64,000 bases of DNA. Source: Actinophytocola xanthii (GTDB lineage: Bacteria; Actinomycetota; Actinomycetes; Mycobacteriales; Pseudonocardiaceae). A program made the position numbers and the translations under genes. Shown in pieces: positions 10,875 through 30,518 of the stretch; position 1 is the first letter of the stretch, and every line of letters starts with the position of its first letter. The stretch is taken from positions 1 to 64,000 of the forward strand of contig NZ_MSIE01000019.1 in assembly GCF_001921205.1 (NCBI RefSeq), written 5' to 3'. The notes under the pieces are model-generated. The model made no database searches. It worked only from the letters and a program-made list of their open reading frames with translations, and was not told where the DNA came from.

Positions 10875-10911
10875 AAAAGGCGCGCGGTCGCACGACCGGA
10901 GAAGGACCCCC

Positions 10912-11385: not shown

Positions 11386-11401
11386 GGAGGAGGATGCCTG
11401 G

Positions 11402-12025: not shown

Positions 12026-12766
12026 CTATCCGTGGGCGGCGACGAACAGGCCCCGCCCGCTCGGCCCGCCCTCCCGGTACTCCGCACGCAGGCCGGCGTC
12101 GTCGAACGCCGTCAGGTACTGGTCGCGGGTGAACAGCGAGTGCACCTCGCACTCGGTGAAGTCCTCGATGCCCTCGGCGTCGGCCACCGTGTAGCGGATC
12201 GTCATCCGGCTGGTGTCACCGTCGCGCACCGAGTGGGACAGCCGGGTGATGGCCCTGCCGTCCTGGACCACCGCCGAAGCCGTCACGTAGCCGTGGCGAA
12301 ACCGCTCGGGGAACCACCAGGGCTCCACGACCACCACCCCGTCCGGGGCGGTGTGCGCGGCCAGGCAGCGCAGCGTCGCGCAGAGCTCGTCGGTGGAGGT
12401 CGCGTAGGCGATCGAGAAGCACATGCACAGCACCGCGTCGTAGACCCGGCCGAGGTCGAACCCGCGCATGTCGCCGGTGTGCACCCGCTCCCAGCCGACC
12501 TTGGCCCGGGCGATGTCGCCCATCGGCACCGACAGCTCCAGGCCGTCGGCCCGGTCGAACAGCTCGACGAGGCGGCGCAGGTGGTTGCCGGTGCCGCAGG
12601 CGACGTCGAGCACCGACGTGGCGTCGGGACAGCGCGAGCGGACCAGCGCGGCGACCGTGTCCGCCTCCGCCGACCAGTCCTTGCCGCGTGAGCCGTAGAC
12701 GGCGTCGTAGATGTCGGCCTGGCGCCGCCCGTACTGGGTGCCGGCCGGAGCGGGGATGGCGGTCAT
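12026..12766 (-). CDS. TDP-aminosugar N,N-dimethyltransferase (DesVI/TylM1/SpnS type)
   Basis: 246 residues, class I methyltransferase with SAM motif VLDVACGTGNHL. It agrees closely with recalled DesVI over YDAVYGSRGKDW, DGVVVVEPWWFPERF, RLSHSVRDGD and the C-terminal YREGGPSGRGLFV. Members add two methyl groups to the amino group of TDP-3- or 4-amino-deoxyhexoses. ATG 12766 is preferred because AAAGAGG precedes it by five bases; GTG 12772 would sit on that site. It follows the aminotransferase by a few bases, so the pair should make a dimethylamino sugar. The attached position (C4 rather than C3) follows from the partner's similarity to SpnR. Confidence 0.92.
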   Translation of the reverse strand: MTAIPAPAGTQYGRRQADIYDAVYGSRGKDWSAEADTVAALVRSRCPDATSVLDVACGTGNHLRRLVELFDRADGLELSVPMGDIARAKVGWERVHTGDMRGFDLGRVYDAVLCMCFSIAYATSTDELCATLRCLAAHTAPDGVVVVEPWWFPERFRHGYVTASAVVQDGRAITRLSHSVRDGDTSRMTIRYTVADAEGIEDFTECEVHSLFTRDQYLTAFDDAGLRAEYREGGPSGRGLFVAAHG

Positions 12767-12777
12767 CGTCACCTCTT

Positions 12778-13938
12778 TCAGACAGCGAGTGTTTCCGGCA
12801 CGGTCGCGGTCACCGACCGCATTACCGTGTCCACGACCAACCGGACGTCGTCGTCGGTGAGGGCCTGGTGCAGCGGCAGCAGCAGCGTCTCCTCGGCCGC
12901 CCGCTCGGTCCCGGGCAGCACCTGGTCGGTCGCGCCGTAGATCGGCACCTGGTGCAGGGCCGGGTACCGGAACGTCGTGTACACCCCCGCGGCCAGCAGG
13001 TCGGACGCCAACCGGTCACGCAGCGCCGGTGCCACCTGGACCCAGTAGAAGTAGCCGGAGCTGGTGTGCCCGTCGGGCAGCGGCGGCGGCGTATGCAGCC
13101 CATCGATCCCGGCCAACAGGCTGTCGTAGGTGGCGGCGATCTCCAGCCGCCGCTCGACGAACCCGGCCAACCGGCGAAGCTGCACGCTGCCCAGGGCGCC
13201 GGTGATGTCGTTGCCGATGATCCGCCGACCGGGTTCGGCGACGTTCAGGTCCCACCAGCGGGGCGTCTGTCCAGCCTGGACGAAGCCGCTGGACTTCACC
13301 ATGCCGAAGTAGGCGAGCCGGCGGGCCCGCTCGGACAGCTCGGGATCGCGCACGTAGAGCATGCCCCCGTCGCCGGTCACGAGGATCTTCATCGCGTCGA
13401 AGCTCCACACGGCGAGGTCGCCAAATGTGCCGCACGCCTGACCGTCCACCTGGGAGGCCACAGCGCAGGCGGCGTCCTCGATCAACGGCACGCCGCGGTC
13501 GCGGCAGAGCCGGGAGATCGACGCGATGTCGCCGGGACTGCCGCCGAAGTGCAGCACCAGCACGGCCTTGGTCCGCGGGGTGAGCGCGGCGGCGACGTCG
13601 GCCGCGGTCGGGTTGAGAGTGCGCGGCTCGACATCGCAGAACACCGGTCGCGCGCCGCTGGCGAGAACGGCGTTGCCGGCCGCGACGAAGCTGGGCGAGG
13701 GCAGCACGACCTCGTCACCCGGTCCGAGCCCGAGCAACTCGACGGCCAGGAACAGGCCGGCCGTCGCGCAGTTGATCAGCTGCACCCGCGACGCCGGAAC
13801 CCCGAGGTGCTCGGCGAACTCGGCCTCGAACGCCGTGGCCCGCGGGCCGTAGCCGAGCCAGTTGCTGGCGAAGACGTCCGCTACCGCGGCCGCCTCCTCC
13901 TCGCCCAACGTCGGCTGGAAGACATTGATTTTACCCAT
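12778..13938 (-). CDS. TDP-4-keto-deoxysugar 4-aminotransferase, SpnR-like (DegT/DnrJ/EryC1)
   Basis: 386 residues, PLP-dependent sugar aminotransferase. The Schiff-base lysine is Lys184 in WSFDAMK, followed by the GDGG segment; the cofactor Asp is in IEDAACAVAS. From memory the overall wording is much nearer SpnR, which aminates C4 in forosamine biosynthesis, than DesV or DesI, as in NWLGYGPRATAFEAEFAEHL. Neighbours supply the rest: 2,3-dehydratase, 3-ketoreductase and N-dimethyltransferase. Without a 3-deoxygenase (SpnQ type) the expected sugar would keep O3, giving a 4-dimethylamino-2,4,6-trideoxyhexose rather than forosamine. The regiochemistry is by homology only. Confidence 0.9.
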   Translation of the reverse strand: MGKINVFQPTLGEEEAAAVADVFASNWLGYGPRATAFEAEFAEHLGVPASRVQLINCATAGLFLAVELLGLGPGDEVVLPSPSFVAAGNAVLASGARPVFCDVEPRTLNPTAADVAAALTPRTKAVLVLHFGGSPGDIASISRLCRDRGVPLIEDAACAVASQVDGQACGTFGDLAVWSFDAMKILVTGDGGMLYVRDPELSERARRLAYFGMVKSSGFVQAGQTPRWWDLNVAEPGRRIIGNDITGALGSVQLRRLAGFVERRLEIAATYDSLLAGIDGLHTPPPLPDGHTSSGYFYWVQVAPALRDRLASDLLAAGVYTTFRYPALHQVPIYGATDQVLPGTERAAEETLLLPLHQALTDDDVRLVVDTVMRSVTATVPETLAV

Positions 13939-13957
13939 GGCGTGTGCACCTTTCGAG

Positions 13958-15202
13958 TCATCGCCGATGGCGTGCGGTGAGCTCCTCGAGCACCGGGACC
14001 ACCTCGTGGAGGCCGCGACGCCGGCGCAGCTCCTCGTGGAAGGCGACGGCGCTCTTGGCGAACTGGGGCTCCTCGAGCAACCTCGACAGCTGCTCCCGCA
14101 GGACCCCCGCGGTCAACCCGGCCGGGTTCACGACCAGACCGACGCCCTGGTCGGTGAGGTGGCGGCCGACGTTCTCCTCGGCCCAGAACGGCACCGAGGT
14201 CACCAACTGCGGGACCTCGAAGGTTCCGGCCGCGAGCGCCGTGCCGTCCCCGCCGTGGTGGATGATCGCCGAGCAGCTGGGCAGGAGCTGGTTGAGGGGG
14301 ACGTAGTCGACGATGCGGACGTTGTCCGGCACGTCGCCGTCGAAGGAGGACGCGGGCAGCGTGACGACCAGCTCGATGTCCAGGGTGGCCAGTTCGCGGA
14401 CCACGTCGGGCAGCGGGTGGCCGGCCTCGGAGAACAGCAGGCGGCCCCGGCCGCCGACACCGAGCGTCAGTACCACCCGGGGCCGCTCGGGCGGGGTGCT
14501 CACCCAGTCCTCGACGGCGCCGCCGCCGTTGTAGGGCACCCACCGCACCGGTACGTACTCGAGGTCGACGGGGACCCGCCAGCTGTCCGGCCGGGGGTCC
14601 ACCGTCCACTGGCCCAGCAGCAGCTCGGGTTCGAACTCCATGCCGTGGCGCTCGAGCATGGGCGCCATGAGCCAGTCCAGCGAGCCGTTCACCATCGGCG
14701 GGCAGGTGTCCGGTTCGCGCTCGGCGAACCGCTCCCACAGCCAGCCGACGTTGTCCTGCCCCCAGAGGAAACGCGCGTGGGCGGCGCCGCAGGTCCGGGC
14801 GGCGATCGACGCCGGGACGCAGAGCGGGTCCCACAGCACGAGGTCGGGCCGCCACTGCCGGCAGACCTCGACCAGCTCGTCGAGTGCGGGGGTGTACGAG
14901 GTGAACGCGCCGATCAGGGCCAGCCAGGCATCGTGCCACGGCTCGTCCGGCTCACACCGCAGGACCAGCCGGTCGTTGAGCGTGTCGAGCTTGTCCGGAT
15001 TGGAGTTGAACTCGACGATGTGCCGCACCATCTCGTTGTCCCCGAAGGGGATGGCGGTCAGGCCTGTCCGCGCGATCGCGTCCGCCATGGACGGGTGCGC
15101 GGCCACGCGGACCTCGTGGCCCTCGTTCTGCAGCGCCCAGGCCAGCGGCACGATCGGGTGTAGGTGGGCCGTCGCGGGGAAGATCGTGAAGAGGACTCGC
15201 AC
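13958..15202 (-). CDS. Macrolide glycosyltransferase (GT1, EryCIII/DesVII/SpnP type)
   Basis: 414 residues from GTG 15202, with GAAGGAG at good spacing. GT-B fold: N-terminal acceptor domain starting MRVLFTIFPATAHLHPIVPL with RPDLVLWDPLCVPAS, and a C-terminal nucleotide-sugar domain with VDYVPLNQLLPSCSAIIHHG and a variant GGDGTALAAGTFEVPQ in place of the common GGAGT. The neighbouring aminosugar genes suggest it transfers the dimethylaminosugar, and members of this group often use a P450-like helper protein. No such helper lacking the heme Cys is seen here. Confidence 0.92.
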   Translation of the reverse strand: MRVLFTIFPATAHLHPIVPLAWALQNEGHEVRVAAHPSMADAIARTGLTAIPFGDNEMVRHIVEFNSNPDKLDTLNDRLVLRCEPDEPWHDAWLALIGAFTSYTPALDELVEVCRQWRPDLVLWDPLCVPASIAARTCGAAHARFLWGQDNVGWLWERFAEREPDTCPPMVNGSLDWLMAPMLERHGMEFEPELLLGQWTVDPRPDSWRVPVDLEYVPVRWVPYNGGGAVEDWVSTPPERPRVVLTLGVGGRGRLLFSEAGHPLPDVVRELATLDIELVVTLPASSFDGDVPDNVRIVDYVPLNQLLPSCSAIIHHGGDGTALAAGTFEVPQLVTSVPFWAEENVGRHLTDQGVGLVVNPAGLTAGVLREQLSRLLEEPQFAKSAVAFHEELRRRRGLHEVVPVLEELTARHRR

Positions 15203-15234
15203 GGGCGCTCCTTCGGCGTGCTGGTGTGCGGCGG

Positions 15235-15843
15235 TCAGACGAACGCGGGTGCGCGGTCCAGCTCCAGGCAGGTCGCGTAGTCGGGCAGCATCCCGCGCTC
15301 GCGGGACTCGGCCAGGGTGAGCGCGGCGGCGTCCCGTTCGGACATCAGCGGCTCCAGGCCCGGCGGCAGCGGCAGCGCGAGCGCGGGGTCCAACGGGGAC
15401 ACGGCGAGCTCGTTGGCCGCGACGTAGACCTGGGAGAGCAGGTACACCACCATCGAGTCGGCCTCCAGCACGACCGACCCGTGCCCGACGCCGACCGGGC
15501 AGTAGACCGAGCGGCCCTCGGCCTCGTCCAGCACCACCGAGTCCGACATGCCGAAGGTCGGCGAGCCGACCCGCAGGTCGACCTGGAAGTCGATGACCTT
15601 GCCCCGTGGGCAGTAGACGTACTTCGCCCCGCCAGGAGGGGTCGCGGTGTAGTGGATGCCGCGCAGCACACCCGGTCGCCGGGAGAGGTTGTGGCTGGCC
15701 TGCCGGACCGGGAACAGCGGTCTGCCGACCGCGGCCGCGAACGCCTCCTCCTGGAACGGCGAGGTGAAGTAGCCGCGGCTGTCGGGGAACCGCTCCGGCG
15801 TGAACTCGAAGGCCCCCTCGATCCGCAGTGGCCGTACCCGCAT
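15235..15843 (-). CDS. dTDP-4-keto-6-deoxyhexose 3,5- or 5-epimerase (RmlC family)
   Basis: 202 residues from ATG 15843 with GAAGGGAG upstream, the normal size for RmlC-type cupins. Visible features are DSRGYFTSPF, the catalytic-His segment LRGIHYTATPPG, KVIDFQVDLRVGSPTFG and VGVGHGSVVLE. Such enzymes epimerize C5, or C3 and C5, of TDP-4-keto sugars, moving the route to the L series. Its presence next to a 4-ketoreductase argues that one sugar made here is an L-2,6-dideoxyhexose or that the aminosugar itself is L. Only C5 or both carbons may be affected; the sequence does not tell. Confidence 0.88.
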   Translation of the reverse strand: MRVRPLRIEGAFEFTPERFPDSRGYFTSPFQEEAFAAAVGRPLFPVRQASHNLSRRPGVLRGIHYTATPPGGAKYVYCPRGKVIDFQVDLRVGSPTFGMSDSVVLDEAEGRSVYCPVGVGHGSVVLEADSMVVYLLSQVYVAANELAVSPLDPALALPLPPGLEPLMSERDAAALTLAESRERGMLPDYATCLELDRAPAFV

Positions 15844-15856
15844 GGTCGCGCTCCCT

Positions 15857-16642
15857 TCAGTTCGCCGCCGGGACCCGCTCGACGCCGCGCACGGTCCGCG
15901 CGGTTCCGTCGAGGTAGCGGTCCAGCAGGTCGTCGACATATCCCGGCCCGAGGTCGAGGTCGCCGAACTCGGGGACCAGCCGGTGCAGCTTGGTCGTGCT
16001 GACCCGGGCCGGTTCGATGTCCTGGCCGACGTATGCCCGTCGCGGCACCACGCCCAGCCGGTCGACGAGCGCGTCGAGCAGGTTCTCGACGTCGCGGGGT
16101 TGTCCGGTCGCGACGTTCACCACCTCGTCGGTCACCCCGGCGGTGAGCAACCGGTCGAGCGCGAGCAGCAGGTGCCGGACGTCGACCAGGTCGCGCTGTG
16201 CGCCGCGGAAGACCGTGACGGCGCCGGCGAGGACCTGCCTCGTCAGCGCCGGCAGCAGCTGGTCGGGCGGTGCGCCGGCGCCGACGACGTAGCCGAGCCG
16301 CAGGACCAGCCAGCGGGCCCCGGACAGCGCGCACACCCGCTCCAGCCCCAGCTTGTGCCGGCCGTAGGGGGTGCGCGGGAAGACCGGCCCGTGCTCGGTG
16401 CCGGGGCAGTCGTGCCCGGCGTACATGCCGGTGGAGGCGGTGGAGAAGAACACGGCTGTCCGCCCTTCCGCGCGACAGCGCCGCAGCACGTCGTAGACCA
16501 GGGCGGACTCCCGGTCGAACGCGGCGCCCTCGGTGGAGCCAGCGCTGGAGACGCCGGCGGCGATCACCACCGCGTGCGGGTGGCGGGCGCCGAAGTGGGG
16601 TACGAGGTGTCGGGCGAGGAACCCGTGGCCGATGACCTCCAT
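15857..16642 (-). CDS. NDP-4-keto-deoxyhexose 4-ketoreductase (extended SDR)
   Basis: 261 residues from ATG 16642, which shares one base with the stop of the gene before it (TGATG). The nucleotide motif is GHGFLARHL at the very N-terminus; catalytic residues appear as STASTGMY and YGRHK (YxxxK). It matches the NAD-dependent epimerase/dehydratase group that reduces C4 of TDP-deoxysugars, the last step before transfer. With an aminotransferase that also consumes a 4-keto sugar, this enzyme implies a second, neutral sugar branch competing for the same intermediate. Stereochemistry is not predictable. Confidence 0.82.
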   Translation of the reverse strand: MEVIGHGFLARHLVPHFGARHPHAVVIAAGVSSAGSTEGAAFDRESALVYDVLRRCRAEGRTAVFFSTASTGMYAGHDCPGTEHGPVFPRTPYGRHKLGLERVCALSGARWLVLRLGYVVGAGAPPDQLLPALTRQVLAGAVTVFRGAQRDLVDVRHLLLALDRLLTAGVTDEVVNVATGQPRDVENLLDALVDRLGVVPRRAYVGQDIEPARVSTTKLHRLVPEFGDLDLGPGYVDDLLDRYLDGTARTVRGVERVPAAN

Positions 16643-17643
16643 CAGCGCGCACCGTCCGTGCCGGGCACCCGGACGGCGACCGAGCGGATCTCCTCGACCA
16701 GCCTGGCCGTCTCCTGCGCCCCGGCGAGCCACGGAGCCTCCGTCCGGTCCGTGCGCCCGCCCAGCGCGGCGTCGGCGAACGAGCCGAGCGAGCGCCGGAT
16801 CTGGTGCGCCGCGGAGAGGATGAAGGTCTCGGTGTGGTCCTGTTCCTCGATCCGCAGCGACGGCTGGTACTCCGGCGGGGTGATGAACGCCCGGTCCAGG
16901 AGCAGCGACGCCGCGCTCCCCCACAGCTGGTAGCGGCAGCGGTAGGTGTGCTGGAAGCCGAACTCGAGGTCGGCGAGGACCCCCTGCGGGGACACCAGCA
17001 GCGCGTGTCCGCTCACGTCGATGCCGAGCTGGTCGTCGACCCGCAGGACGGCGCCGGCGACCGTGAGCCCCTCGCCGAGCAGGAGCCAGGCCAGCCGGAG
17101 CGGGTAGACGCCGGTGTCGAGCAGCGCACCGCCGCCCAGGCCCGCGTCGTAGCGGATGTCGCTGGCGGGCAGCGGCGGGATGCCGAAGGAGGCGGAGAGC
17201 GTGCGCACCTCGCCGAACCGGCCCCGCGCCATGAGCTCTCGCACCCGCTCGTGCTGGGGATGGTGCAGGAAGGCGAAGTTCTCGCGGAGGACGAGGCCCC
17301 GCTCGGCGGCGAGGTCGACGACGTCCTTGGTCGTGGCCGGGTCGCCGGTGAGCGGCTTCTCGCAGAGCACGTGCTTGCCCGCCGCCAGCGCGCGTCGGGT
17401 CCACTCGTGGTGCAGGGCGTTGGGCAGGCCGATGTAGACGGCGCCGACGTCGTCGTTCTCGACCAGCTCGTCGTAACCGCACGGCGTGCCGCCGAACTCG
17501 GCGGCGAAGGCGACCGCCCGCTCGGGCGTGCGGCTGGCGACGGCGGCGATCCGGACCTGGTCCAGCGATGTCGCGGCCGGCAGTGTCCGGCGGCGGGCGA
17601 TCGAGGAGCACCCGAGCACCCCCAGTGACAGCGGAGGTGTCAT
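16642..17643 (-). CDS. TDP-3,4-diketo-2,6-dideoxyhexose 3-ketoreductase (Gfo/Idh/MocA)
   Basis: 333 residues. Rossmann segment LGVLGCSSIARR at the N-terminus, the family EKP motif in HVLCEKPLTGD, and the Gfo/Idh substrate domain after it. It starts within the stop codon of the 2,3-dehydratase (ATGA, 17640-17643), so the two are translationally coupled. That pairing is diagnostic: the dehydratase makes an unstable 3,4-diketo sugar and this enzyme (SpnN/TylC1-like group) reduces C3 at once. The result is a TDP-4-keto-2,6-dideoxyhexose. The configuration at C3 is not readable from the sequence. Confidence 0.92.
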   Translation of the reverse strand: MTPPLSLGVLGCSSIARRRTLPAATSLDQVRIAAVASRTPERAVAFAAEFGGTPCGYDELVENDDVGAVYIGLPNALHHEWTRRALAAGKHVLCEKPLTGDPATTKDVVDLAAERGLVLRENFAFLHHPQHERVRELMARGRFGEVRTLSASFGIPPLPASDIRYDAGLGGGALLDTGVYPLRLAWLLLGEGLTVAGAVLRVDDQLGIDVSGHALLVSPQGVLADLEFGFQHTYRCRYQLWGSAASLLLDRAFITPPEYQPSLRIEEQDHTETFILSAAHQIRRSLGSFADAALGGRTDRTEAPWLAGAQETARLVEEIRSVAVRVPGTDGAR

Positions 17644-19070
17644 CGGAGGCCTCGCAGGCAGGCGACGAGGGTCCGGGCCTGGACGTTGACGTAGTTGCTG
17701 TGCCGGAGCAGGCCGTTGAGCTGGTGGACGGTGAGCCAGCGGAAGTCCGGTCGTCCGCCGTCCGGGAAGTCGGCGTCGACCTCGATGATCTGGTAGCGGT
17801 TGCGGGCGTGGTAGAAGCGGCCGCCCTCCTCGGACAGCTCGGTGTCGAACAGCACCCGGTCCTGGTCGCGGCCGAGCACGAGGTCCAGGAACGGCGGGCG
17901 TTTCTCCGGTGCCACGTCCTCGTAGTTGTCCGGGGTGCACTGGACGGTGGGCGCGAGCTCGACCGTGCCGTGGTAGCCGGGTTCGGCCCTGGCGCTGACC
18001 AGCGCGTGCAGCACGCCGTCGACCCGCTTGACGAGCAACGCGATCGCGCCGGTCCCGCAGGGCATGAGCAGCGGCTGGGTCCAGCTGCCCACCTCACGGC
18101 TGTTGGCCAGCACGGCCACGGCGATCACGGTGAAGAACAGGCCGCGCTCGTGCTGGATCTCGTGGCTCGTGCGCTTCCACTGGCGCACCTCGTTGAGACC
18201 GATCAGCTCGGCCCGCACGGTGTGCTCGGACTCCCGGGAGGTGATCCAGCTCATCATCTCGACGGAGGTGCTCAGGCCGCCCTCGGCCGGGTCGCACGAG
18301 CGCAGCAGCGCCGAGGTGACCTCCCCACCGTCCTCCCCGCCGCCCTCGAACCCGCCGGGCATGCACGACAGCACGGTCCGGGCGTCCATGTTGACCACGT
18401 TGTCCTCGGCGAGGAGCCGGTGCACCTGGCCGAGGGTCAGCCAGCAGAAGTCCTCGAGCGGCTCGACCTCGTCGTCCACCTCGACGATCATGTTCCGGTT
18501 GCGCTTGCGGTAGAACCATGAACCCTGCTCGGACTGCAGGACGTCGGCGAGCACACGCCCACCGCTCAGGTCCCGGAACCGGTCGAGGTAGGGCACCGAA
18601 CCGCCCTCGTGCACCCGAAGATAGTTGCTCCTGGTCGCCTGGACGGTCGGGGAGACCTGGACTCCGCCCGGGTTTCCCGGCTCGGACTTGGCCTGCAGCA
18701 GGCAGTGCAGCACACCGTCGATCTCGCGGACGAGGATGCCGAGGATCCCGATCTCGGGCTGGTTGATGATCGGCTGGGTCCAGGCCGGCACCGGCCCGTA
18801 GTCGGACTCGACGCGCAAACCCTGGATCCGGAAGAACTTCCCGCTGTCGTGGTGCAGGTCGCCGCTGTCCTCGTCGAACCGCCAGCGACGCAGGTCCTCG
18901 AACGGGATCCGCTCGACCCGGTGCACCTGGTTCGCGCTCCGGTCCGCGAGCCAGGAACGCACCTCGTCCATCGAATGGAGTCCGTTGTCGACGGTACGGG
19001 CGGAGTACGCCAGGCGCTCGGCCAGCGTGTCGTCCGGCTTGCGCAGCAACGACCTTCCAGCCGTAGTCAT
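17640..19070 (-). CDS. NDP-hexose 2,3-dehydratase
   Basis: 476 residues, the usual length for this family (SpnO, TylX3, EryBVI). It is an internal duplication: two halves of about 215 residues, each with a sxW/hxV segment, FxV or FRI core strands, SWTQPLL or AWTQPII, LVK/LVR-xDGVLH and a C-terminal RWLT or CWLT with NxVNMxAR. It removes the C2 hydroxyl from TDP-4-keto-6-deoxyglucose and so commits the pathway to 2-deoxysugars. Start ATG 19070 has AAGGAGAG upstream. It is coupled to the 3-ketoreductase behind it. Confidence 0.95.
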   Translation of the reverse strand: MTTAGRSLLRKPDDTLAERLAYSARTVDNGLHSMDEVRSWLADRSANQVHRVERIPFEDLRRWRFDEDSGDLHHDSGKFFRIQGLRVESDYGPVPAWTQPIINQPEIGILGILVREIDGVLHCLLQAKSEPGNPGGVQVSPTVQATRSNYLRVHEGGSVPYLDRFRDLSGGRVLADVLQSEQGSWFYRKRNRNMIVEVDDEVEPLEDFCWLTLGQVHRLLAEDNVVNMDARTVLSCMPGGFEGGGEDGGEVTSALLRSCDPAEGGLSTSVEMMSWITSRESEHTVRAELIGLNEVRQWKRTSHEIQHERGLFFTVIAVAVLANSREVGSWTQPLLMPCGTGAIALLVKRVDGVLHALVSARAEPGYHGTVELAPTVQCTPDNYEDVAPEKRPPFLDLVLGRDQDRVLFDTELSEEGGRFYHARNRYQIIEVDADFPDGGRPDFRWLTVHQLNGLLRHSNYVNVQARTLVACLRGLR

Positions 19071-19119
19071 GGGCTCTCCTTACGTCGCTCCACAGCCATT
19101 GGTACCGGGAAATGTGTAG

Positions 19120-20202: not shown

Positions 20203-20214
20203 GGCGCCTCCGTT

Positions 20215-22101
20215 TCACGGGGTCGGGGCGTGGCTGGCGTACAGCCGGGCATAGGCGCCGTCCAGGGCGACCAGCTGCTCGTGCGACCCGCGCTCGACGA
20301 TCCGTCCCCCGTCGAGCAGCAGGATGAGGTCGGCATGCCGGATCGTGGACAGCCGGTGGGCGATCACGAAGCAGGTTCGTCCGGCGCGCAGCGACCGCAT
20401 CGCCCGTTGCAGAAGCACCTCGCTGCGCGAGTCGACCGAGCTGGTCGCCTCGTCGAGGACGAGGATCGCGGGATCGGCGACGAACGCCCGCGCCACGGTG
20501 ACCAGCTGCCGCTCCCCTGCGCTGATCCCGGCGGACTCGCCCAGCACCGTGTCGTAGCCCTCCGGCAACGCCCGGACGAACTGGTCCACCCGCGCCGCCC
20601 GCGCCGCCGCGACGACGTCGGCCCTGGTCGCGTCGGCCTGTCCGTAGGCGATGTTGTCCGCGATGGTCCCGGCGAACAGCCAGCTGTCCTGCAGCACGAG
20701 CCCGGTCGCCCGGCGCACCTCGGCCCTGGGCAGCGTCGCGATGTCGGTGTCGTCGAGCAGGATCCGCCCGCTCTCCGGCTCGTGGAAGCGCAGCAGCAGG
20801 TTCGCCAGGGTGGTCTTGCCGGCCCCGGTCGGCCCCACGACGGCGACCGTCTGTCCCGGTTCGACGGTGAACGAGACGTCGGTCAGCACCGGGACCCCCG
20901 GCGTGTAGGCGAAGGACACCCGGTCGAACACGACCCGCCCGCGCACCGGGGCCAGCCGCTCGGCCGCCGGCCGGTCGGGCTCCTCCTCCTCGGCGTCGAG
21001 CAGCTCGTAGACCCGCCGGGCGGAGGCGATCCCGGACTGCAGCTCGCCGACCACCGCGGCGAGCATGCCGGCGTTGTTGCCGAAGTGCCCCGCGTACTGG
21101 GCGAAGGCCTGGACGGCACCGATCGAGAGCGAGCCGCTCACCACCCGCAGCGCGCCGACGACCGCGATCAGGATGTAGGTGAGGTTGCCGACCAGCAGCA
21201 TCGCCGGCTCCATCGCCCCGGAGCTGACCTGCCCGCGCAACCCGGAGTCGAACGTCCGCTCGTTGCACTCGTCGAAGGTCTCGACCACCTGCCGGCGCCG
21301 GCCGAGCACCGTGACCAGCTGATGGCCCGCGTAGGTCTCCTCGACGTGGCCGGCCAGCTCGCCGGTCGCCGCCCACTGGTCGGCGTAGCGCCGCTCCGCC
21401 CGGCGCGCGATCACCGCGCCGACCACTCCGGACAGCGGCAGGGTCGCCAGCACGACCACGGCGAGCAGCGGCGAGATCACGAACATCATGACCAGCACGC
21501 CGACGATCACGAACACCTTCGTGAACACCACGCCGACCGACTTCTGCAGCGCCTGCTGCACGTTGTCGACGTCGTTGGTGAGCCTGCTCTGCAGCTCGCC
21601 CCGGGGATAGCTGTCGAAGTACGCGACCGGGAGCCTGGTCAGCTTGGCGGCGATGGCCTCGCGCAGGTCGAACACGACCCGCCGCACGACGAGCGCCGCC
21701 ATTCGTTCCTGGACCGTCGACAGCACGAAAGCCACCGCGTACAGGGCGAGCAGGACCGCCGCCAGCCTGCCGAGCGCGGCGAGGTCGACGCCCCGGCCCG
21801 GCACCAGGTCGACGGTGCCGAGGACCTCGGCGACGCCGTGGTTCCCGGCCGCGTGCTCCCGCTCGACCACCTCCTCGGCGGTGAGGCCGGGGGGATAGCC
21901 GGCACCGACCGCACCGGCGAAGATCACGTCGGTCGCCCGCCCGAGCACGGCCGGCGCCGCCACCGTGCCCGCGAGCACGCCGACCAGGCCGGTGAGCGCC
22001 ACGGCGACCAGGTGCACGCGGTAGGGCGCCAGCTGGGCGAGCAGACGCCGACCCGCGCGCACCCGAACCGCCGGGCGGTCCTCGGTGGTCGGCGCGGTCA
22101 C
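20215..22101 (-). CDS. ABC exporter half-transporter, catalytic-site subunit
   Basis: 628 residues from GTG 22101, which overlaps the partner's stop (GTGA). An N-terminal six-helix membrane domain (about 20-350) is followed by an ATPase domain with Walker A GPTGAGKTT, Walker B ILVLDEATSS with catalytic Glu, and an H-loop His in IAHRLST. The signature is degenerate: GISAGERQ where LSGGQ is expected. The partner shows the opposite pattern, so the pair forms one working and one degenerate ATP site, as in TM287/288-type heterodimers. The position among glycosylation genes suggests product export and self-resistance. Confidence 0.93.
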   Translation of the reverse strand: MTAPTTEDRPAVRVRAGRRLLAQLAPYRVHLVAVALTGLVGVLAGTVAAPAVLGRATDVIFAGAVGAGYPPGLTAEEVVEREHAAGNHGVAEVLGTVDLVPGRGVDLAALGRLAAVLLALYAVAFVLSTVQERMAALVVRRVVFDLREAIAAKLTRLPVAYFDSYPRGELQSRLTNDVDNVQQALQKSVGVVFTKVFVIVGVLVMMFVISPLLAVVVLATLPLSGVVGAVIARRAERRYADQWAATGELAGHVEETYAGHQLVTVLGRRRQVVETFDECNERTFDSGLRGQVSSGAMEPAMLLVGNLTYILIAVVGALRVVSGSLSIGAVQAFAQYAGHFGNNAGMLAAVVGELQSGIASARRVYELLDAEEEEPDRPAAERLAPVRGRVVFDRVSFAYTPGVPVLTDVSFTVEPGQTVAVVGPTGAGKTTLANLLLRFHEPESGRILLDDTDIATLPRAEVRRATGLVLQDSWLFAGTIADNIAYGQADATRADVVAAARAARVDQFVRALPEGYDTVLGESAGISAGERQLVTVARAFVADPAILVLDEATSSVDSRSEVLLQRAMRSLRAGRTCFVIAHRLSTIRHADLILLLDGGRIVERGSHEQLVALDGAYARLYASHAPTP

Positions 22102-23840
22102 GGCGCCACCAGCCGCACCGGCTGCGAGCTGACGATCTCGCGGTAGGCCTCGTTTCCGGCCAGCAGCTCCTCGTGCCGCCCGGAGCCAACGACCCGGCCC
22201 TCGTCGAGCACCACGATCCGGTCGGCGTCCCGGACGGTGTCGACGCGTTGGGCGACGACCAGGACCGCGGCCGCGGCGGTCTCGACGGCCAGGGCGGCAC
22301 GCAGGTCGGCCTCGGTGGTCGCGTCGAGTGCGGAGAAGCAGTCGTCGAACAGGTACACGGCGGGGCGGCGCAGCAGGGTCCTGGCGATCGTGAGCCGCTG
22401 GCGCTGCCCACCCGAGAGGGTCGCGCCGCCCTGGGCGACGGGTGCGTCGAGGCCGCCCTCGAGCCGGGCAACGAACTCGGCGGCCTGGGCGACCTCCAGC
22501 GCGTGCCACAGCTCGGCCTCGGTGGCGCGCGGCCGGCCGTGCCGCAGGTTGTCCGCGACGGTGCCGGAGAACAGCAGGGCCCGCTGCGGCACGAGCCCGA
22601 CGGTCCTGGTCAGGTCGCCGGGGTCTAGGTCGCGCACGTCCGTGCCGTCGACGAGGACGCTGCCGGCGGTCGTGTCGGCCAGCCTGAGCACGAGGTTGAG
22701 CAGGGTGGTCTTGCCGCTGCCGGTGCTGCCGACGATCGCGACGGTCTCACCCGGGCCGGCGGACAGGTCGACCGCCGACAGCGCCGGCCGCGCGGCACCC
22801 GGGTAGCGGAACTCGACACCGCGCAGCTCGACCGCGACCCCCCGCCCGGCGCCCGGGGGCGGTGCCGCGGGTGCGGAGGGTGCGGTCACCTCGGGTTCGG
22901 TGTCGAGGACCTCCCGGATCCGGCGGGCGGAGACGGCCGCACGCGGGATGGTGATGAACACGAAGGTGGTCAGCATGATCGACCAGACGATGTAGACCAG
23001 GTACTCGACGAACGCGTTCACCGTGCCGATCCGCACCGCACCGGCGCCCACCCGCAGGCCGCCGAACCAGACGATCGCGACCGTGGCGAGGTTCGACACG
23101 AGCATGACCGCGGGGAACAGCGTCGCCATCAGCCGGCCGGTGCCGAGCGACAGCCGGAACAGCTCGGCGTCGGTCCGGCGGAACCGCGCCAGCTCGTAGT
23201 CGTCGCGGACGAACGCGCGCACGGTGCGGACACCGGAGATCTGCTCGCCGAGGATGCGGTTGAGCAGCTCCACCCTCGGCTGGATCCGCGCGTATAGCCG
23301 GCCCATGCGGATGAGCACCACCCAGGTCAGTACCGCCATGACCGGGATCAGCGCGACCGGGACCGCCGAGAGTGGCACGTCCTGGTTCACCGCGAGAACG
23401 ACGCTGCCGAGGCAGGTCAGCGGGGCGGCGGCCAGCGTAGTGAACCCGGCGAGCACCAGCCGCTCGATCTGCTGGACGTCGTTGATCGTGCGCGTGACCA
23501 GCGAGGAGCCGCCGAAGCGGCCGACCTGGTGGTCGGACAGCTCCAGTACCCGGCGGAAGACCGCCGAGCGCAGGTCGCGGCTGAGCCCGAGCGCGGCCCT
23601 TGCCCCGTAGGAGACCGAGGCGATCCCGGCCACCACCGCGACCACGGCCACGAGCAGCATCAGCGCACCCAGCGAGGCGATCACGCCCGGGTCGCCGGAG
23701 ACCACCCCGTCGTTGATCACGGCGGCGTTGGTCGTCGGCAGCAGCAGCAACGCCACGACCTCCACGACCTGCAGCACCGAGGCCACGGCGACGGTACGTC
23801 GGTACGGCCGCAGGTGGGCTCGCAGCAGGCCGGTCAGCAC
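22098..23840 (-). CDS. ABC exporter half-transporter, degenerate-site subunit
   Basis: 580 residues from GTG 23840, preceded by GGGAGG; the frame stays open 18 codons upstream but without a site. Six membrane helices (about 15-310), then Walker A GSTGSGKTT and a canonical signature LSGGQRQ. The Walker B run ends in Asp-Asp (VYLFDDCFS), so the catalytic Glu is Asp, and the H-loop His is Gln (VVAQRVDTV). Those two losses match the family pattern for the non-hydrolysing site of a heterodimer. It is coupled to the next gene by a four-base overlap. Confidence 0.92.
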   Translation of the reverse strand: MLTGLLRAHLRPYRRTVAVASVLQVVEVVALLLLPTTNAAVINDGVVSGDPGVIASLGALMLLVAVVAVVAGIASVSYGARAALGLSRDLRSAVFRRVLELSDHQVGRFGGSSLVTRTINDVQQIERLVLAGFTTLAAAPLTCLGSVVLAVNQDVPLSAVPVALIPVMAVLTWVVLIRMGRLYARIQPRVELLNRILGEQISGVRTVRAFVRDDYELARFRRTDAELFRLSLGTGRLMATLFPAVMLVSNLATVAIVWFGGLRVGAGAVRIGTVNAFVEYLVYIVWSIMLTTFVFITIPRAAVSARRIREVLDTEPEVTAPSAPAAPPPGAGRGVAVELRGVEFRYPGAARPALSAVDLSAGPGETVAIVGSTGSGKTTLLNLVLRLADTTAGSVLVDGTDVRDLDPGDLTRTVGLVPQRALLFSGTVADNLRHGRPRATEAELWHALEVAQAAEFVARLEGGLDAPVAQGGATLSGGQRQRLTIARTLLRRPAVYLFDDCFSALDATTEADLRAALAVETAAAAVLVVAQRVDTVRDADRIVVLDEGRVVGSGRHEELLAGNEAYREIVSSQPVRLVAP

Positions 23841-23868
23841 CGGGCCTCCCCGTCGACGTCCACGCCGC

Positions 23869-25143
23869 TCAGGCGGAGACCGGCTGGGCCGCACGCATGC
23901 CGGCGAGCTCGACGAGCTCGGCCACCACCTCCGCCGGCGAGGGCATGGTCTCGGCCTCCCCGGCGAGGGCGCGGGCGGCGGTGGTGAACGCCGGCTCGGT
24001 CAGCAGCCGCGACAGGGCACCGGTCAACGACTCGACGTCGGCCTCGTAGTTCGGCACGGTCAACCCGGCGCCGTACCGGTCGAACCGCCGGCTCAGCACG
24101 GCCGCGTTGACCGCGATCGGCAGGGACAGCTGCGGCGTTCCGCAGCTGAGCGACGTCATCGTGACGCCCCCACCTCCCGAGTGGACGACCGCGTCGCACT
24201 CGGGCAGCACGAGGTGCAGCGGCACCTCCACCATGGGCCGGACGGAGTCGGGCAGGGGGCCGACCGCCGCCACGTCCTGGCCGGTCGCCAGCAGCAGCAC
24301 CTCGGCGCCCACCGCCTCGGCGGCGGCGATGATCTGTGGCAGCCTGTTGCTGGCCGGTCCGAACGAGACGGTGCTCGAGCGGCCCCAGACCACGCACAAC
24401 CGGGGGCGCCCGGTGCGCTCTGGCAGGTCGGTCGGCACCGAACCCGGCCCGTTGTAGGGGATGTAGCGGATCGGCAGCCGGTCGAGGGCGAGCTTCGGCG
24501 CCACCGCCTCCGGGCAGGGGTCGATCACCGTCCTGGCGCGACCGAACATGCGCGCGCCCAGCTCGGGTCCGATGAGGCCGGTCATCGTGGACTCCGCGGT
24601 GGCCGAGGAGAACTGCTCGCTGCCGCCGTCGCCGCCGAGGGTGTCCAGCGCGTCGCTCGGGCCGGTCGGTCCCCACAGGTGCAGCACGTTCGGCACGTCC
24701 ACCGCCTCGGCGGCGAGCGGCGCCTCGTAGCAGACCATGTCGTGGACGACGAGGTCCGGCCGCCACGCCCGCGCGTACCGCTGTGCCCCCTCGATGCTGC
24801 GGCCCAGCTGCGCCGTGGTCGCCTCCGCCGTCTCCGCCCACCGGGCCGCGGCGTCGAAGGTCGCGAAGTCGAGCGGCTCACCGTCGTCCGGCCGGGGTGG
24901 TGGCTCCGGGTACGGCCAGTCCCCGCTCGCGAAGTTCGCCACGTTGAACCACCGGGTGAACATCATCATGTCGACGCTGTCGAGCACCGGCACGGGAACG
25001 AGCCCTGCGCGGCTCACCGCGTCGACATCGGACGGGGAGCACAGCATCCGCACGTCGTGCCCGGCCGCCCGCAGCGCCCACGCCAGCGGGACCATCGGGA
25101 AGTAGTGGCCGGGCCACGACGACGCTCCGAACAGCACTCGCAT
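23869..25143 (-). CDS. Macrolide-type glycosyltransferase (GT1)
   Basis: 424 residues from ATG 25143 with GAGAGG upstream. GT-B fold: N-terminal acceptor domain MRVLFGASSWPGHYFPMVPL, RPDLVVHDMVCYEAPLAAE, and C-terminal donor domain with VEVPLHLVLPECDAVVHSGG and GTPQLSLPI. It is the same broad family as the glycosyltransferase at 13958-15202 but clearly divergent. The relic at 27689-27859 resembles its first 42 residues. Donor and acceptor are unknown; the several sugar pathways nearby give it either the neutral deoxysugar or the aminosugar. Confidence 0.9.
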   Translation of the reverse strand: MRVLFGASSWPGHYFPMVPLAWALRAAGHDVRMLCSPSDVDAVSRAGLVPVPVLDSVDMMMFTRWFNVANFASGDWPYPEPPPRPDDGEPLDFATFDAAARWAETAEATTAQLGRSIEGAQRYARAWRPDLVVHDMVCYEAPLAAEAVDVPNVLHLWGPTGPSDALDTLGGDGGSEQFSSATAESTMTGLIGPELGARMFGRARTVIDPCPEAVAPKLALDRLPIRYIPYNGPGSVPTDLPERTGRPRLCVVWGRSSTVSFGPASNRLPQIIAAAEAVGAEVLLLATGQDVAAVGPLPDSVRPMVEVPLHLVLPECDAVVHSGGGGVTMTSLSCGTPQLSLPIAVNAAVLSRRFDRYGAGLTVPNYEADVESLTGALSRLLTEPAFTTAARALAGEAETMPSPAEVVAELVELAGMRAAQPVSA

Positions 25144-25154
25144 GCTCGTTCCTC

Positions 25155-26543
25155 TCACTGGCGCTGGTTCAGGCGGTCCAGGACGAGGTCCGCGGCGGCA
25201 TCCCGGCCACCGGCGGCCCGCTGGGACATCGCGACCCGTTCCGCGGCGGCGCGGAACGAGCCCTCGTCGGCGACTCGGGTGATCTTGTGCACGAGGTCGT
25301 CGGGGTCCATGACGTAGGGGTCGTCGACCGTGAGGCTCACCCCGAGGTCCTGGCCGCGTGCGGCCACGTCGTGACAGTCCGCCCAGAGTGGACGGATGAC
25401 CATGGGCGTGCCGAAGTAGAGGCACTCGTGGAACCCGTTGCTGCCGCCGTGGGTGAGGAAGACCTTGACGCTGGGGTGGGCCAACACGTCGTGCTGCGAG
25501 GGCAGCCACGTCTCGATCCGCAGGTTGTCCGGCAGCTCGGCCTGCGGCGGTAGCAGCTCCTGCTGCGCCTTGGGCAGCTTCCACAGCACGTGGTGGCGCC
25601 CGCCGAGCCGCCGGGCGACCTCGACGATCCCGCGCAGGTCCGGCTCGGACAGGCGGGTGATCGTGCCGAGCCCGATGTAGACGACCGAGGGGTGCGCGTC
25701 GAGCCAGTCGGTTACCGCGGTGTCGTCCGGTGCCTCGGGCAGCGGAGGCAGCATGGCGCCCACCATCCGCATGTTCGGCAACGTCGAGAGTGGGTAGTCG
25801 ACCTCGCGCACCGTGTAGTTCAGCACCAGTTCGGCGCGGTCGAGGGCGTTGGCCGCCCGCCGGGCGGGCCCCGGGATGTCCAGCTCGGCGCACAGCGCGA
25901 CGTCGGCGCGGAGCCGGGACCGCATGGCGGGGCCGAGGAACATCCCGAGCGTGTTGAGCTTGAACACCTGGTTGTAAACCTGCTGGCGCAGCGTCATCCG
26001 CAGCGGCAGGCCGGAGTGCGGCACCGGGAACGGCCAGGGCAGGTGGGACTTCGTGAGCAGCGGCACGTGCCCGGTCATGACGTGGCTGACGAGGAACGGG
26101 TTGCTGAGCACGAACGGGATACCCCGGCTGATCGCGAGCGCGACGGCCAGGACGCTCACCCCGTCGATCACCATCAGCGCGGGGCGGTTCCGGTCGACGA
26201 CGTCGCGCAGCTCCCGCAGCTTCGCTGCCTGCCCGGCGGGGTCGTAGACCAGCTGGAACCCGGAACGGCGGGACCGCAGCCGGGACCGGTGGGCGAAGTT
26301 CTCGTAGTCGCGCTGGTCCATCGTCGCCGAGGAGCGCTCCCGCTCCGGGGTGCCGAAGGCCACGAACCGCACCAGGCTCGCCGCGGAGAGCCGTTCGACG
26401 TCGGCCCGACGGCTCTCGTCGGTGGCGAACCACAGGTCGGGCACCCCGCGCCGGGCGAGCTCGCCCGCCAGGACCAGCAGGGGGTTGAGCAGACCGCTCT
26501 CGGCCGAGCTGACGAACAGGACCGGCCGCTGGTTGGTCTCCAT
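25155..26543 (-). CDS. UGT-like glycosyltransferase, resembling polyene mycosaminyltransferases
   Basis: 462 residues from ATG 26543 with GAGAGG at eight bases. A GT-B fold distinct from the other two: it has [30 protein letters not shown] and a donor motif [17 protein letters not shown] followed by RPLWADCHD, wording shared with UDP-glycosyltransferases and, from recall, with the polyene group of AmphDI/NysDI. Those enzymes use GDP-sugars derived from mannose, and here two GDP-mannose 4,6-dehydratases are encoded divergently next door. It is therefore the best candidate to attach a 6-deoxymannose-type sugar. No mycosamine aminotransferase is visible. The donor assignment is inference. Confidence 0.85.
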
Positions 26544-26627
26544 GCCGAGCACCTCTCGCGGGGACGTGGACGTCGTCTTTGTCCCATGGCCGACGCCGAG
26601 AAATCCCCAGTCCGGTCTCCCTATGCT

Positions 26628-26642
26628 TGGCACGACGTGCCA
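26628..26642. promoter_or_regulatory. 15-bp perfect palindrome in divergent promoter region
   Basis: TGGCACGACGTGCCA is a perfect palindrome around one central base. It lies about 40 bases before the GTG of the first GDP-mannose dehydratase and 85 bases before the divergent glycosyltransferase. Its place fits an operator for one or both genes. No protein can be assigned to it. Confidence 0.4.
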
Positions 26643-26683
26643 CCCGGACCGACCGTGCACCGTGGCACGCCGGAAGGGGCGAC

Positions 26684-27673
26684 GTGGCCAAGCGCGCGAT
26701 GATCACCGGCATCTCCGGCCAGGACGGCTCCTACCTCGCCGAGCACCTGCTCGGGCTCGGCTACGAGGTATGGGGACTGGTCCGCGACCCGGACCGGCCG
26801 GTCGGGGCGCGCATCGCACACCTCGCCGACGAGATCCCGTTGGTGCGCGGCGATCTGCTCGACGGGGAGAGCCTGGTCGCCGCCGTGGAGCGGGTGCGCC
26901 CGGACGAGCTCTACAACCTGGCCGCGATCTCCTTCGTGCCGACGCCGTGGCGCGACGTCGAGCTGATGAACGACGTCAACGGCGCGGGGGTGCTCCGGCT
27001 GCTCGAGGCCGTGCGGGTCGTCTGTGGTCTCGAGCCCGGCACCGCCCCGGCTCCCGGGGGAATCCGGTTCTACCAGGCGTCGTCCTCGGAGATGTTCGGC
27101 GCGGCGACGCAGACCCCACAGCACGAGGCGACGCCGTTCCATCCGCGCAGCCCCTACGGCGTGACCAAGGTTTACGGGCACCTGCTGACCCGCAACTACC
27201 GCGAGTCCCTCGGCCTGTACGGGGTCTCCGGCATCCTGTTCAACCACGAGTCGCCCCGCCGGGGCACCGAGTTCGTCACCCGCAAGATCACCCTCGCGGC
27301 CGCCGAGATCAAGCTCGGCCGCCGGGACAGGCTGCGCCTTGGCAGCCTGGACGCCCGCCGGGACTGGGGCTTCGCCGGCGACTACGTTCGGGCGATGCAC
27401 CTCATGCTCCAGCAGGACCGCCCGGACGACTACGTCGTCGGGACCGGTCGGACGCACACCGTCGAGGACGTGGTGCGGATCGCGTTCGAGACCGTGGGGC
27501 TGCACTGGCACGACCACGTCGCCGTCGACCCCGGCCTGGTCCGTCCGACCGAGACCCTGCCGCTGTGCGCGGACCCGACCCGGGCCAGGACCGAGCTGGG
27601 CTGGCGACCGTCGGTGGAGTTCGCCGACCTGATCCGGATGATGGTCGAGGCAGACCTGCGCCGTCTTCGCTGA
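26684..27673 (+). CDS. GDP-mannose 4,6-dehydratase, copy 1
   Basis: 329 residues from GTG 26684, four bases after GGAAGGGG. Extended SDR of the GMD group: [19 protein letters not shown] for nucleotide binding, [19 protein letters not shown] (YxxxK) and the substrate segment [16 protein letters not shown]. It converts GDP-mannose to GDP-4-keto-6-deoxymannose, precursor of GDP-rhamnose, 6-deoxymannose-type sugars and mycosamine. By eye it is about three quarters identical to the copy at 27931; it lacks part of a loop after VWGLVR and the C-terminal 14 or so residues. The reductase or aminotransferase for the next step is not visible here. Confidence 0.93.
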
Positions 27674-27688
27674 GCGCCCGTGGGACCG

Positions 27689-27859
27689 TCAGGTCGGGAC
27701 GCGGCCCGGCTCGGCGGCGCCGGACGGCCGCGGGTCGCACAGCGCCCGCACGTCGTGACCGGCCGCGCCGAGCGCCCAGCCCAGCAGTACCAGCGGGGCG
27801 TGGTGACCCGGCCAGGACGACAGGGCCGACCGCACCCGCACGTACACGCGTCCCACCAT
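27689..27859 (-). pseudogene. Glycosyltransferase N-terminal relic
   Basis: A 56-codon frame starts at ATG 27859 and stops with TGA at 27689. Residues about 11-42 read [20 protein letters not shown] and [11 protein letters not shown], which line up with SSWPGHYFPMVPLAWAL and AAGHDVRMLC at the start of the glycosyltransferase at 23869-25143. The other 370 residues are missing. It sits divergently just before the second GDP-mannose dehydratase, the same arrangement as the intact glycosyltransferase before the first. This looks like the remains of a duplicated divergent pair. Confidence 0.8.
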
Positions 27860-27930
27860 CGCGACCACCCGGCCAGGATGACCCGGGCGCCCTGGAGGAT
27901 TCCCTAGTCTTCATCACGTTGAATGCGACC

Positions 27931-28968
27931 ATGCCCAAGCGTGCGTTGATCACTGGCATCACCGGCCAGGACGGCTCCTACCTCGCCGAGCACCTGCTCG
28001 GGCTCGGCTACCAGGTATGGGGGCTGATCCGCGGCCAGGCGAACCCGCGCAAGTCCCGGATCAGCCGCATGTGCGCCGACCTGTCCTTCGTGGACGGCGA
28101 CATGATGGACGAGGGCAGCCTGGTGTCCGCTGTGGACAAGGTGCAGCCGGACGAGGTCTACAACCTGGCCGCGATCTCGTTCGTGCCGTTGTCGTGGAGC
28201 CAGGCCGAGTTGGTGACCGAGATCAACGGGATGGGCGTGCTGCGCATGCTCGAGGCGATCCGGATCGTCAGCGGACTGGACAAGTCGCGTACCGCCACCA
28301 CCGGTCAGATCCGCTTCTACCAGGCGTCCTCCTCGGAGATGTTCGGGGCGGTCGAGGAGACCCCGCAGCACGAGACGACGCTGTTCCACCCGCGCAGCCC
28401 CTACGGTGTCGCGAAGGTCTACGGCCACTTCATCACGCGCAACTACCGCGAGTCGTTCGGCATGTACGGCGTCTCCGGCATCCTGTTCAACCACGAGTCG
28501 CCCCGGCGCGGCACCGAGTTCGTCACCCGCAAGATCACCCTCGCCGCCGCGAACATCAAGCTCGGCCGCCAGGACAAGCTGCACCTGGGCAACCTCGACG
28601 CCCAGCGGGACTGGGGCTACGCCGGGGACTACGTCAAGGCCATGCACCTGATGCTCCAGCAGGACGAACCGACCGACTACGTCGTCGGCACCGGACACAT
28701 GCACTCGGTGCGTGACGCCGTCCGTATCGCCTTCGAGGCGGTCGACCTGGACTGGCGCGAGCACGTGGTCGTCGACCCCGAGCTGGTCCGGCCGGCCGAG
28801 GTGGAGACCCTGTGCGCGAACCCGGCCCGGGCGCACGCGGAGCTGGGCTGGCGGCCGTCGGTCGACTTCGTGGAGCTGATCAGGATGATGGTCGAGGCCG
28901 ACCTGCGACAGGCGACCCGCGAGCAGGAGTACGACCACCTGGACCTGGCACTCGCCACCTCCTGGTAG
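27931..28968 (+). CDS. GDP-mannose 4,6-dehydratase, copy 2
   Basis: 345 residues from ATG 27931. Same motifs as copy 1: [38 protein letters not shown] and [16 protein letters not shown], with the full [15 protein letters not shown] loop and a longer C-terminus. The wording is close to recalled NysDIII/AmphDIII proteins of polyene clusters. No strong ribosome site precedes the ATG (weak GAATGCGACC), so it may be poorly initiated or leaderless. A strong hairpin follows at 28984. With copy 1 it gives gene dosage or two slightly different specificities for GDP-4-keto-6-deoxymannose. Confidence 0.94.
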
Positions 28969-30506: not shown

Positions 30507-30518
30507 CAGGGGTGCCAC

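Follow-up and report, generated by a model that had tools for sequence, protein, structure and literature searches.

How many sugars one polyketide is to carry, and from which nucleotide-sugar pools they come, is the question raised by a locus of the actinomycete Actinophytocola xanthii in which genes for thymidine diphosphate (TDP)-deoxysugars stand beside genes for guanosine diphosphate (GDP)-mannose 4,6-dehydratases (GMDs) and glycosyltransferases (GTs). The stretch analysed, called the window here, comprises positions 1 to 64,000 of contig C101 (NZ_MSIE01000019.1, 125.8 kb) and starts at the contig edge; the genome is a draft of 204 contigs and 8.34 Mb, with 97.7% completeness. Each of the genes that an original prediction had listed between 12026 and 28968, from RmlA to the GMDs and including three GTs, is present, and its family was assigned by curated profiles (Table 1). 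The window very probably holds the right-hand end of a polyene cluster that would provide mycosamine and, through a branched TDP pathway, an aminosugar and a neutral sugar.

Published description of the cluster

The A. xanthii proteins WP_075125779-785 and 789-790 were listed by Caffrey, Hogan and Song (2022; PMC8944477) in the order methylase, 4-aminotransferase, LndGT4-like GT, epimerase, 4-ketoreductase, 3-ketoreductase, 2,3-dehydratase, SelSV-like GT and second AmphDI homologue, from a genome of 204 contigs. A separate AmphDI homologue, OLF06429.1 (59%), is given as well, so that all four transferases are in print. In the same paper the 4-ketoreductase and the 4-aminotransferase are taken to imply a branched pathway, and l-digitoxose and a d-vicenisamine epimer are proposed besides mycosamine. 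The window shares gene order, protein set and branched-pathway reading with the polyene clusters described there for A. xanthii and A. algeriensis.

The identities computed from the window were close to those printed for A. xanthii (PMC8944477), being 61.7 as compared to 62% for the 4-aminotransferase, 52.7 to 52% for the N-methyltransferase, 58.5 to 59% for the 3-ketoreductase and 51.4 to 52% for the SelSV-like GT. When G040, a same-genus genome that carries the cluster on a single contig, was set against the printed A. algeriensis values in the same order, we obtained 60.8 vs. 61%, 49.8 vs. 50%, 55.7 vs. 54% and, for two SelSV homologues, 51.0 and 51.3 vs. 51 and 51%, together with 60.8 vs. 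61% for the 2,3-dehydratase. The A. algeriensis row of Table 1 of PMC8944477 has two SelSV homologues, one LndGT4 homologue and no second AmphDI homologue, which fits G040. Judged by these identities, the cluster of the window is almost certainly the published A. xanthii cluster.

The cluster, its transferases, its likely sugars and the inference of two sugars were therefore already published in 2022, and the near-identical cluster that the original prediction had thought of is in print as a description by prediction. No other account of the cluster or its product was found in the literature searched, most subscription papers falling outside that search. The tandem GMDs, the pairing of GT3 with a GMD, the contigs of the remaining polyketide synthase (PKS) and the pairing of transferases and sugars by co-occurrence go beyond the sections of PMC8944477 drawn on here. 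What is added in this work is the contig assignment, evidence from co-occurrence on which transferase goes with which sugar, and a second AmphDI-like clade with a divergent GMD in three of seven clusters. Extra sugars, notably basic ones, are a proposed route to more soluble and less toxic polyene antifungals (PMC8944477); assignments of transferases to sugars would aid the choice and engineering of clusters, and the present one is a test case with four transferases.

Polyketide synthase and mycosamine locus

The PKS gene at the left edge of the window is 54-84% identical per tile to the PKS of G040 and resembles the start of a five-module AmphI-like gene of that genome. The original prediction had advised a search to the left of the window, and the remaining PKS and the mycosamine locus were indeed found on other contigs, largely collinear with G040: tiles of C101, C26, C19, C25, C36, C22/C21 and C184:26169-43493 could be ordered along G040:C10 from 133.6 to 42.5 kb. 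Most collinear tiles are 55-85% identical to G040, while some of C19, C21, C22, C36 and C184 match other G040 modules, a few at 36-49%. No collinearity with G040 was seen for the PKS tiles of C41, C172 and C151, which were excluded from the cluster, and the short PKS gene at C184:13169-17305 was left out after the same comparison. A search for overlaps between contig ends showed that the left end of C101 overlaps nothing and that no overlap ties C101 to the other PKS contigs, so that it is linked to them by collinearity. The sole full join among PKS contig ends is an exact overlap of 168 bp between the right end of C21 and the left end of C22, which are probably neighbours. The last 45 bases are common to the left ends of C21 and C19, and likewise to the left end of C25 and the right end of C184.

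The domain strings of these contigs and of G040 show a modular PKS of large size in which DH-KR modules occur in runs and one protein is AmphI-like. Between two PKS pieces, C25 carries a DegT aminotransferase (76-80% identical to copies in G184, G188 and G040), a UGT, which is the fourth GT (59-61% to copies in relatives), and two P450s (75 and 59% to G040). This group is, on the evidence of orthology, the mycosamine locus. In polyene clusters the exocyclic carboxyl group is made by an AmphN-type P450, a role for which the two P450s of C25 are possible candidates. The polyene marker set is present, with the AmphDI-type transferase and the AmphDII-type mycosamine synthase on C25 and the AmphDIII-type GMD2 in the window, and the best PDB matches of the P450 of the window are PimD, AmphL and NysL. 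Taken together, the C25 locus and this P450 lead us to read the compound as a polyene macrolide. When 15 deoxysugar queries were run on C26, C19, C25, C36, C22, C21, C184 and the next 20 kb of C101, only the mycosamine locus was matched.

A probable branched TDP-sugar pathway

The set for a 4-amino-2,4,6-trideoxyhexose is all present in the window, namely a 2,3-dehydratase (the sole one found in the genome), a 3-ketoreductase, a 4-aminotransferase and an N-methyltransferase. The claim of the original prediction that 4-amination and 4-ketoreduction compete for one intermediate is supported, and so are its two nucleotide-sugar pools, for two TDP sugars and one GDP sugar. A TDP-glucose 4,6-dehydratase (RmlB), which it had proposed to look for outside the window, was absent from the cluster contigs searched, and a single one above the cut-off was found in the genome, at C201.

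The 3-deoxygenase SpnQ was sought in the whole draft genome with the protein of Saccharopolyspora spinosa locus L111, where it lies beside SpnR and SpnS (names were given by position and computed identities). No orthologue was found, in agreement with what had been claimed from the window: the best-scoring match is 33% identical over 374 residues, at C119, and other DegT proteins of the genome match over shorter stretches, at up to 40%; the DegT proteins on C90, C119 and C203 were among those compared with SpnQ. Since the same query gave matches of 67-69% in five clusters of the family that have a 3-deoxygenase (G085, G126, G088, G371 and G156), the search was able to detect such an enzyme, and the result suggests that the amino branch most likely stops at 4-amino-2,4,6-trideoxyhexose. 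The spinosyn locus, whose forosamine genes spnR and spnS (L111) encode relatives of the 4-aminotransferase and N-methyltransferase of the window (Table 1), differs in having SpnQ. In G088 (C34:390001-410000, L248) the branch point occurs in a naturally different form, with GT1 and GT2 types, a 3-deoxygenase and a 4-ketoreductase in one stretch and no epimerase match.

From gene content, families, orthology and the lack of a 3-deoxygenase orthologue, as observed here, we infer substrates, stereochemistry, transferase pairing and product as follows. GMD2 would form GDP-4-keto-6-deoxymannose, which, judging from orthology, would be aminated by the mycosamine synthase of C25 and attached, as mycosamine, by the AmphDI-type transferase of the same contig. 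RmlA of the window and RmlB of C201 would give TDP-4-keto-6-deoxyglucose, and the 2,3-dehydratase and 3-ketoreductase would convert it into TDP-4-keto-2,6-dideoxyglucose, the presumed branch point. In one branch, 4-aminotransferase and N-methyltransferase would produce a TDP-4-(di)methylamino-2,4,6-trideoxyhexose to be transferred by GT1; the D configuration is probable, which would make the sugar an epimer of vicenisamine. In the other, epimerase and 4-ketoreductase would yield a neutral, digitoxose-like 2,6-dideoxyhexose of probable L configuration, which GT2 would place at the position used by SelSV. GT3 would be an extra UGT, possibly supplied by a GDP-6-deoxyhexose. The remark that such an aminosugar is unusual on a macrolide or polyene was fair, although there is precedent, 4-amino sugars on polyenes having been predicted for other strains too (PMC8944477).

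The aminotransferase at 12778-13938 was also considered as a mycosamine synthase, and this was ruled out, as it is 28% identical to the C25 enzyme and is TlmJ/SpnR-like. Elsewhere in the genome, at C90:70000-76500 (L067), a DegT aminotransferase adjoins an N-methyltransferase 46% identical to that of the window, and a domain associated with PKS KS lies ~15 kb away, at C90:54904; C90 possibly holds a second aminosugar cluster.

GDP-mannose dehydratases and the third glycosyltransferase

Both GMDs score just under the cut-off of the gmd profile (415 bits; Table 1). With the TDP-glucose dehydratase profile, GMD1 and GMD2 gave 90 and 100 bits, and the remaining gmd-profile matches of the genome are at 59 bits or less. 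These scores rule out that either is a misread RmlB (PF16363 spans both families). The SSSE and YGVxK motifs, which we take to be catalytic, are kept in both. GMD2 is 74-85% identical to its copy in six related clusters and 65.9% in G094. The original prediction had named a polyene-like UGT along with the GMDs; GT3 is there, but the copy that adjoins a mycosamine synthase is on C25 instead, and the two are 53.8% identical.

Relatives were counted in 390 genomes of the family, with E cut-offs of 1e-110 for GT1, 1e-95 for GT2, 1e-90 for GT3-type UGTs, 1e-40 for the 4-ketoreductase and 1e-60 for the SpnR-type aminotransferase, the only type that this aminotransferase search picks up. GT1-type proteins were present in 7 genomes, GT2-type in 17, the 4-ketoreductase in 59, the SpnR-type aminotransferase in 145 and GT3-type UGTs, mycosaminyltransferases counted in, in 64. 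When 38 UGTs were placed in one tree, GT3 fell into a clade of seven (100/99), apart from the mycosaminyltransferases, with the second UGTs of four Crossiella cryophila-type genomes (G184, G186, G187, G188) and those of G156 and G371. A mycosamine synthase lies within 1.5-kb flanks in 22 of the 30 best-scoring UGT loci and in none of the seven loci of the GT3 clade; the remaining locus, of G146, had none of the eight genes sought in these flanks. A 2,3-dehydratase is within 10 kb of the transferase in all seven clade clusters. A GMD is divergent from the GT3-type gene in three of them, the window (~140 bp), G156:C9 and G371:C70 (~150 bp between hit edges), and no GMD was found within the 1.5-kb flanks in the four Crossiella-type genomes. 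In the GMD tree, GMD1 of the window forms a long branch whose position is unsure; the extra GMDs of G156 and G371 do not join it but cluster with the other GMD copy from their own lineage, and orthology of the GMDs adjoining GT3 is thus unsupported by this tree. The pattern would fit repeated acquisition of a GMD next to a GT3-type transferase, and GT3-GMD pairs may have two separate origins, unless gene conversion has blurred the picture.

It is possible, though on balance improbable, that GT3 belongs with PegA and NppY among the extending transferases and adds mannose or N-acetylglucosamine to mycosamine. Such enzymes are ~50% identical to mycosaminyltransferases (PMC8944477), and the identity of GT3 to the C25 copy is similar. 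Nevertheless, in the tree, whose sequence set is without PegA and NppY themselves, the GT3 clade stands apart from G156_C9_6312, taken as the PegA homologue of A. suaedae by its place beside a second AmphDI homologue only, and hexose donors require no GMD, yet one adjoins GT3 in three of the seven clusters. The idea that GT3 and GMD1 form a cassette adding a second GDP-derived 6-deoxyhexose is in our view doubtful. If true, the polyene would have four sugars from two nucleotide pools, namely mycosamine, the second GDP-6-deoxyhexose, a 4-amino-trideoxyhexose and a neutral dideoxyhexose. The pairing of GT3 with a divergent GMD is the sole part of the cluster that may be new, and offers a small open lead.

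Probable assignment of the TDP sugars to GT1 and GT2

The 4-aminosugar gene set is near GT1 in all seven genomes that have this type, six with the SpnR-type aminotransferase and G088 with SpnQ and another DegT protein. All 17 genomes with GT2 were inspected to ~10 kb, in the window and G040 directly and in the other 15 through stretches of 16-20 kb, and ten of them have no aminotransferase match within this distance. Seven of the ten contain a 4-ketoreductase (G085, G126, G367-G370 and G373; the first two also SpnQ), while the other three (G277, G294, G296) have an RmlC-type epimerase, with no 4-ketoreductase listed for them. A 4-ketoreductase within 10 kb accompanies GT2 in 10/17 genomes, 3 of them also with an aminotransferase. 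These counts favour, where both transferases are present, a role of GT1 on the aminosugar and of GT2 on the neutral sugar, and by analogy the latter is in line with SelSV, the mover of methyl-l-digitoxose.

The Pseudonocardia plasmid NZ_CP013855, which we call the selvamicin cluster from gene content and identities, encodes relatives of the 2,3-dehydratase, 3-ketoreductase and GT2 of the window (Table 1). In two stretches (50 kb of the region) it has no annotated aminotransferase and a methyltransferase of the TylF/MycF family; selvamicin has rhamnose in place of mycosamine (PMC8944477). GT1 scores under the cut-off of the activator-dependent profile TIGR04516. A P450-like helper without the heme Cys is not in the window, and no search for it was made elsewhere in the genome; the P450 of the window was ruled out as an EryCII-type activator of GT1, since it retains the heme Cys and its relatives are polyene P450s.

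We consider it unlikely that the cluster provides just one extra TDP sugar, with a 4-ketoreductase or epimerase that is a relic or acts on another substrate and two EryCIII-like GTs that serve the same sugar or two sites. The Crossiella-type clusters do hold the amino branch alone: their aminotransferase is 73-75% identical to that of the window, the methyltransferase 57-62%, GT1 53%, the GT3-clade UGT 54-56% and the GMD 80% (seen in G184 and G188, with a single GMD in those two stretches as compared to two in the window), and the stretches searched have no match to the epimerase, the 4-ketoreductase, the window-type 3-ketoreductase or a GT2 orthologue. Moreover, GT2 is present twice in both G094 and G084, together with an aminotransferase, and neither genome has a 4-ketoreductase or epimerase match in 20 kb. 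In A. xanthii, however, epimerase, 4-ketoreductase, aminotransferase and methyltransferase are open frames, 74-79% identical to those of G040, and both genomes retain the GT1 and GT2 types.

Kedarosamine has the L configuration and a specific stereochemistry at C3 and C4. The name kedarosamine-like, given to the aminosugar in the original prediction, holds for the constitution; as to configuration, the comparison speaks for a vicenisamine-like sugar of the D series rather than for the L series, because in the Crossiella-type G188, G184, G186 and G187 the aminotransferase, methyltransferase and GT1 are kept and no epimerase match was found in the 160, 120, 20 and 20 kb searched. In view of these four genomes, an L-configured aminosugar, formed if the aminotransferase acted after the epimerase, is rather improbable, even though an epimerase is part of the same gene string and is closest to PDB 1ofn, presumably the C5 epimerase EvaD from the pathway of an L-aminosugar.

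Several points weigh against the branched pathway and the pairing proposed here. GT2 has an aminotransferase within ~10 kb in seven of the 17 genomes (window, G040, G088, G084, G094, G156, G371), and the last four of these have no GT1, which means that in some clusters the aminosugars must be handled by GT2-type enzymes alone. In G088, G085, G126, G367-G370 and G373 a 4-ketoreductase occurs with no epimerase match in 16-20 kb; its substrate therefore need not be an L sugar, and the neutral sugar can be assigned to the L series with less certainty. As several of the counted genomes are close relatives, the co-occurrence figures, which are counts with no test, are not independent. In a 204-contig draft of this completeness an absent-looking gene could sit in a gap. 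Finally, the product of the cluster has not been reported in the literature searched, and the published description is by prediction only.

Genes of the window

Genes were called from codon-position GC, families were taken from curated profile scans and start codons were checked.

Table 1. Genes of the cluster end in the window, with the evidence for each assignment.
Gene product	Position	Strand	Evidence
Modular type I PKS, cut by contig edge	2..8605	-	Pfam domains; docking-KS-AT(HAFH)-DH-KR-ACP-KS-AT(HAFH)
Cytochrome P450, polyene hydroxylase/epoxidase type	8614..9849	-	PF00067; heme Cys motif present
S-adenosylmethionine-dependent methyltransferase, start codon uncertain	9854..10876	-	PDB MitM 78 bits; 70% to G040
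SnoaL-like protein	10912..11385	+	PF13577
TetR-type regulator	11309..12013	+	PF00440
TDP-aminosugar N-methyltransferase (SpnS/DesVI type)	12026..12772	-	52.7% to SpnS; PDB N,N-dimethyltransferase 3bxo, E 1e-71
TDP-4-keto-2,6-dideoxyhexose 4-aminotransferase (SpnR/TlmJ type)	12778..13938	-	PF01041; TlmJ 5uid, E 3e-160; 61.7% to SpnR
GT1, EryCIII-like GT, probable aminosugar transferase	13958..15202	-	TIGR04516 411 bits (cut-off 440); NDP (nucleoside diphosphate)-forosamyltransferase 4ldp among PDB matches; co-occurrence
RmlC-like 5- or 3,5-epimerase	15235..15843	-	PF00908; 1ofn, E 7e-72
Short-form NDP-hexose 4-ketoreductase	15938..16642	-	Epimerase fold; relatives adjoin SelSV-like GTs
NDP-hexose 3-ketoreductase (GFO/IDH/MocA)	16642..17643	-	58.5% to selvamicin-plasmid 3-ketoreductase; 'Sugar 3-ketoreductase' 3rbv
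NDP-hexose 2,3-dehydratase	17640..19070	-	PF03559 540 bits; 62.7% to selvamicin-plasmid 2,3-dehydratase
Glucose-1-phosphate thymidylyltransferase, long form (RmlA)	19120..20202	-	TIGR01208 rmlA_long 415.5 bits, above cut-off
ABC exporter subunit, 5' limit approximate	20215..22100	-	Family scan
ABC exporter subunit	22098..23894	-	Family scan; 67% to G040
GT2, SelSV-like GT, probable neutral-sugar transferase	23869..25143	-	Family scan; 51.4% to SelSV-like plasmid protein
GT3, second AmphDI-type UGT	25155..26543	-	UDPGT domain; tree: clade apart from mycosaminyltransferases
GMD1, second GDP-mannose 4,6-dehydratase, GTG start	26684..27673	+	TIGR01472 369 bits; divergent from GT3
GMD2, AmphDIII-type GDP-mannose 4,6-dehydratase	27931..28968	+	TIGR01472 398 bits

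The methyltransferase at 9854-10876 has its relative in G040, and the stretches of G184 and G188 lack a close counterpart; it may act on a sugar or on the macrolactone. To the right of the cluster, at 29205-31272 of the window, a fungal-type glucuronyl esterase adjoins a lytic polysaccharide monooxygenase, forming a small biomass-degrading pair.

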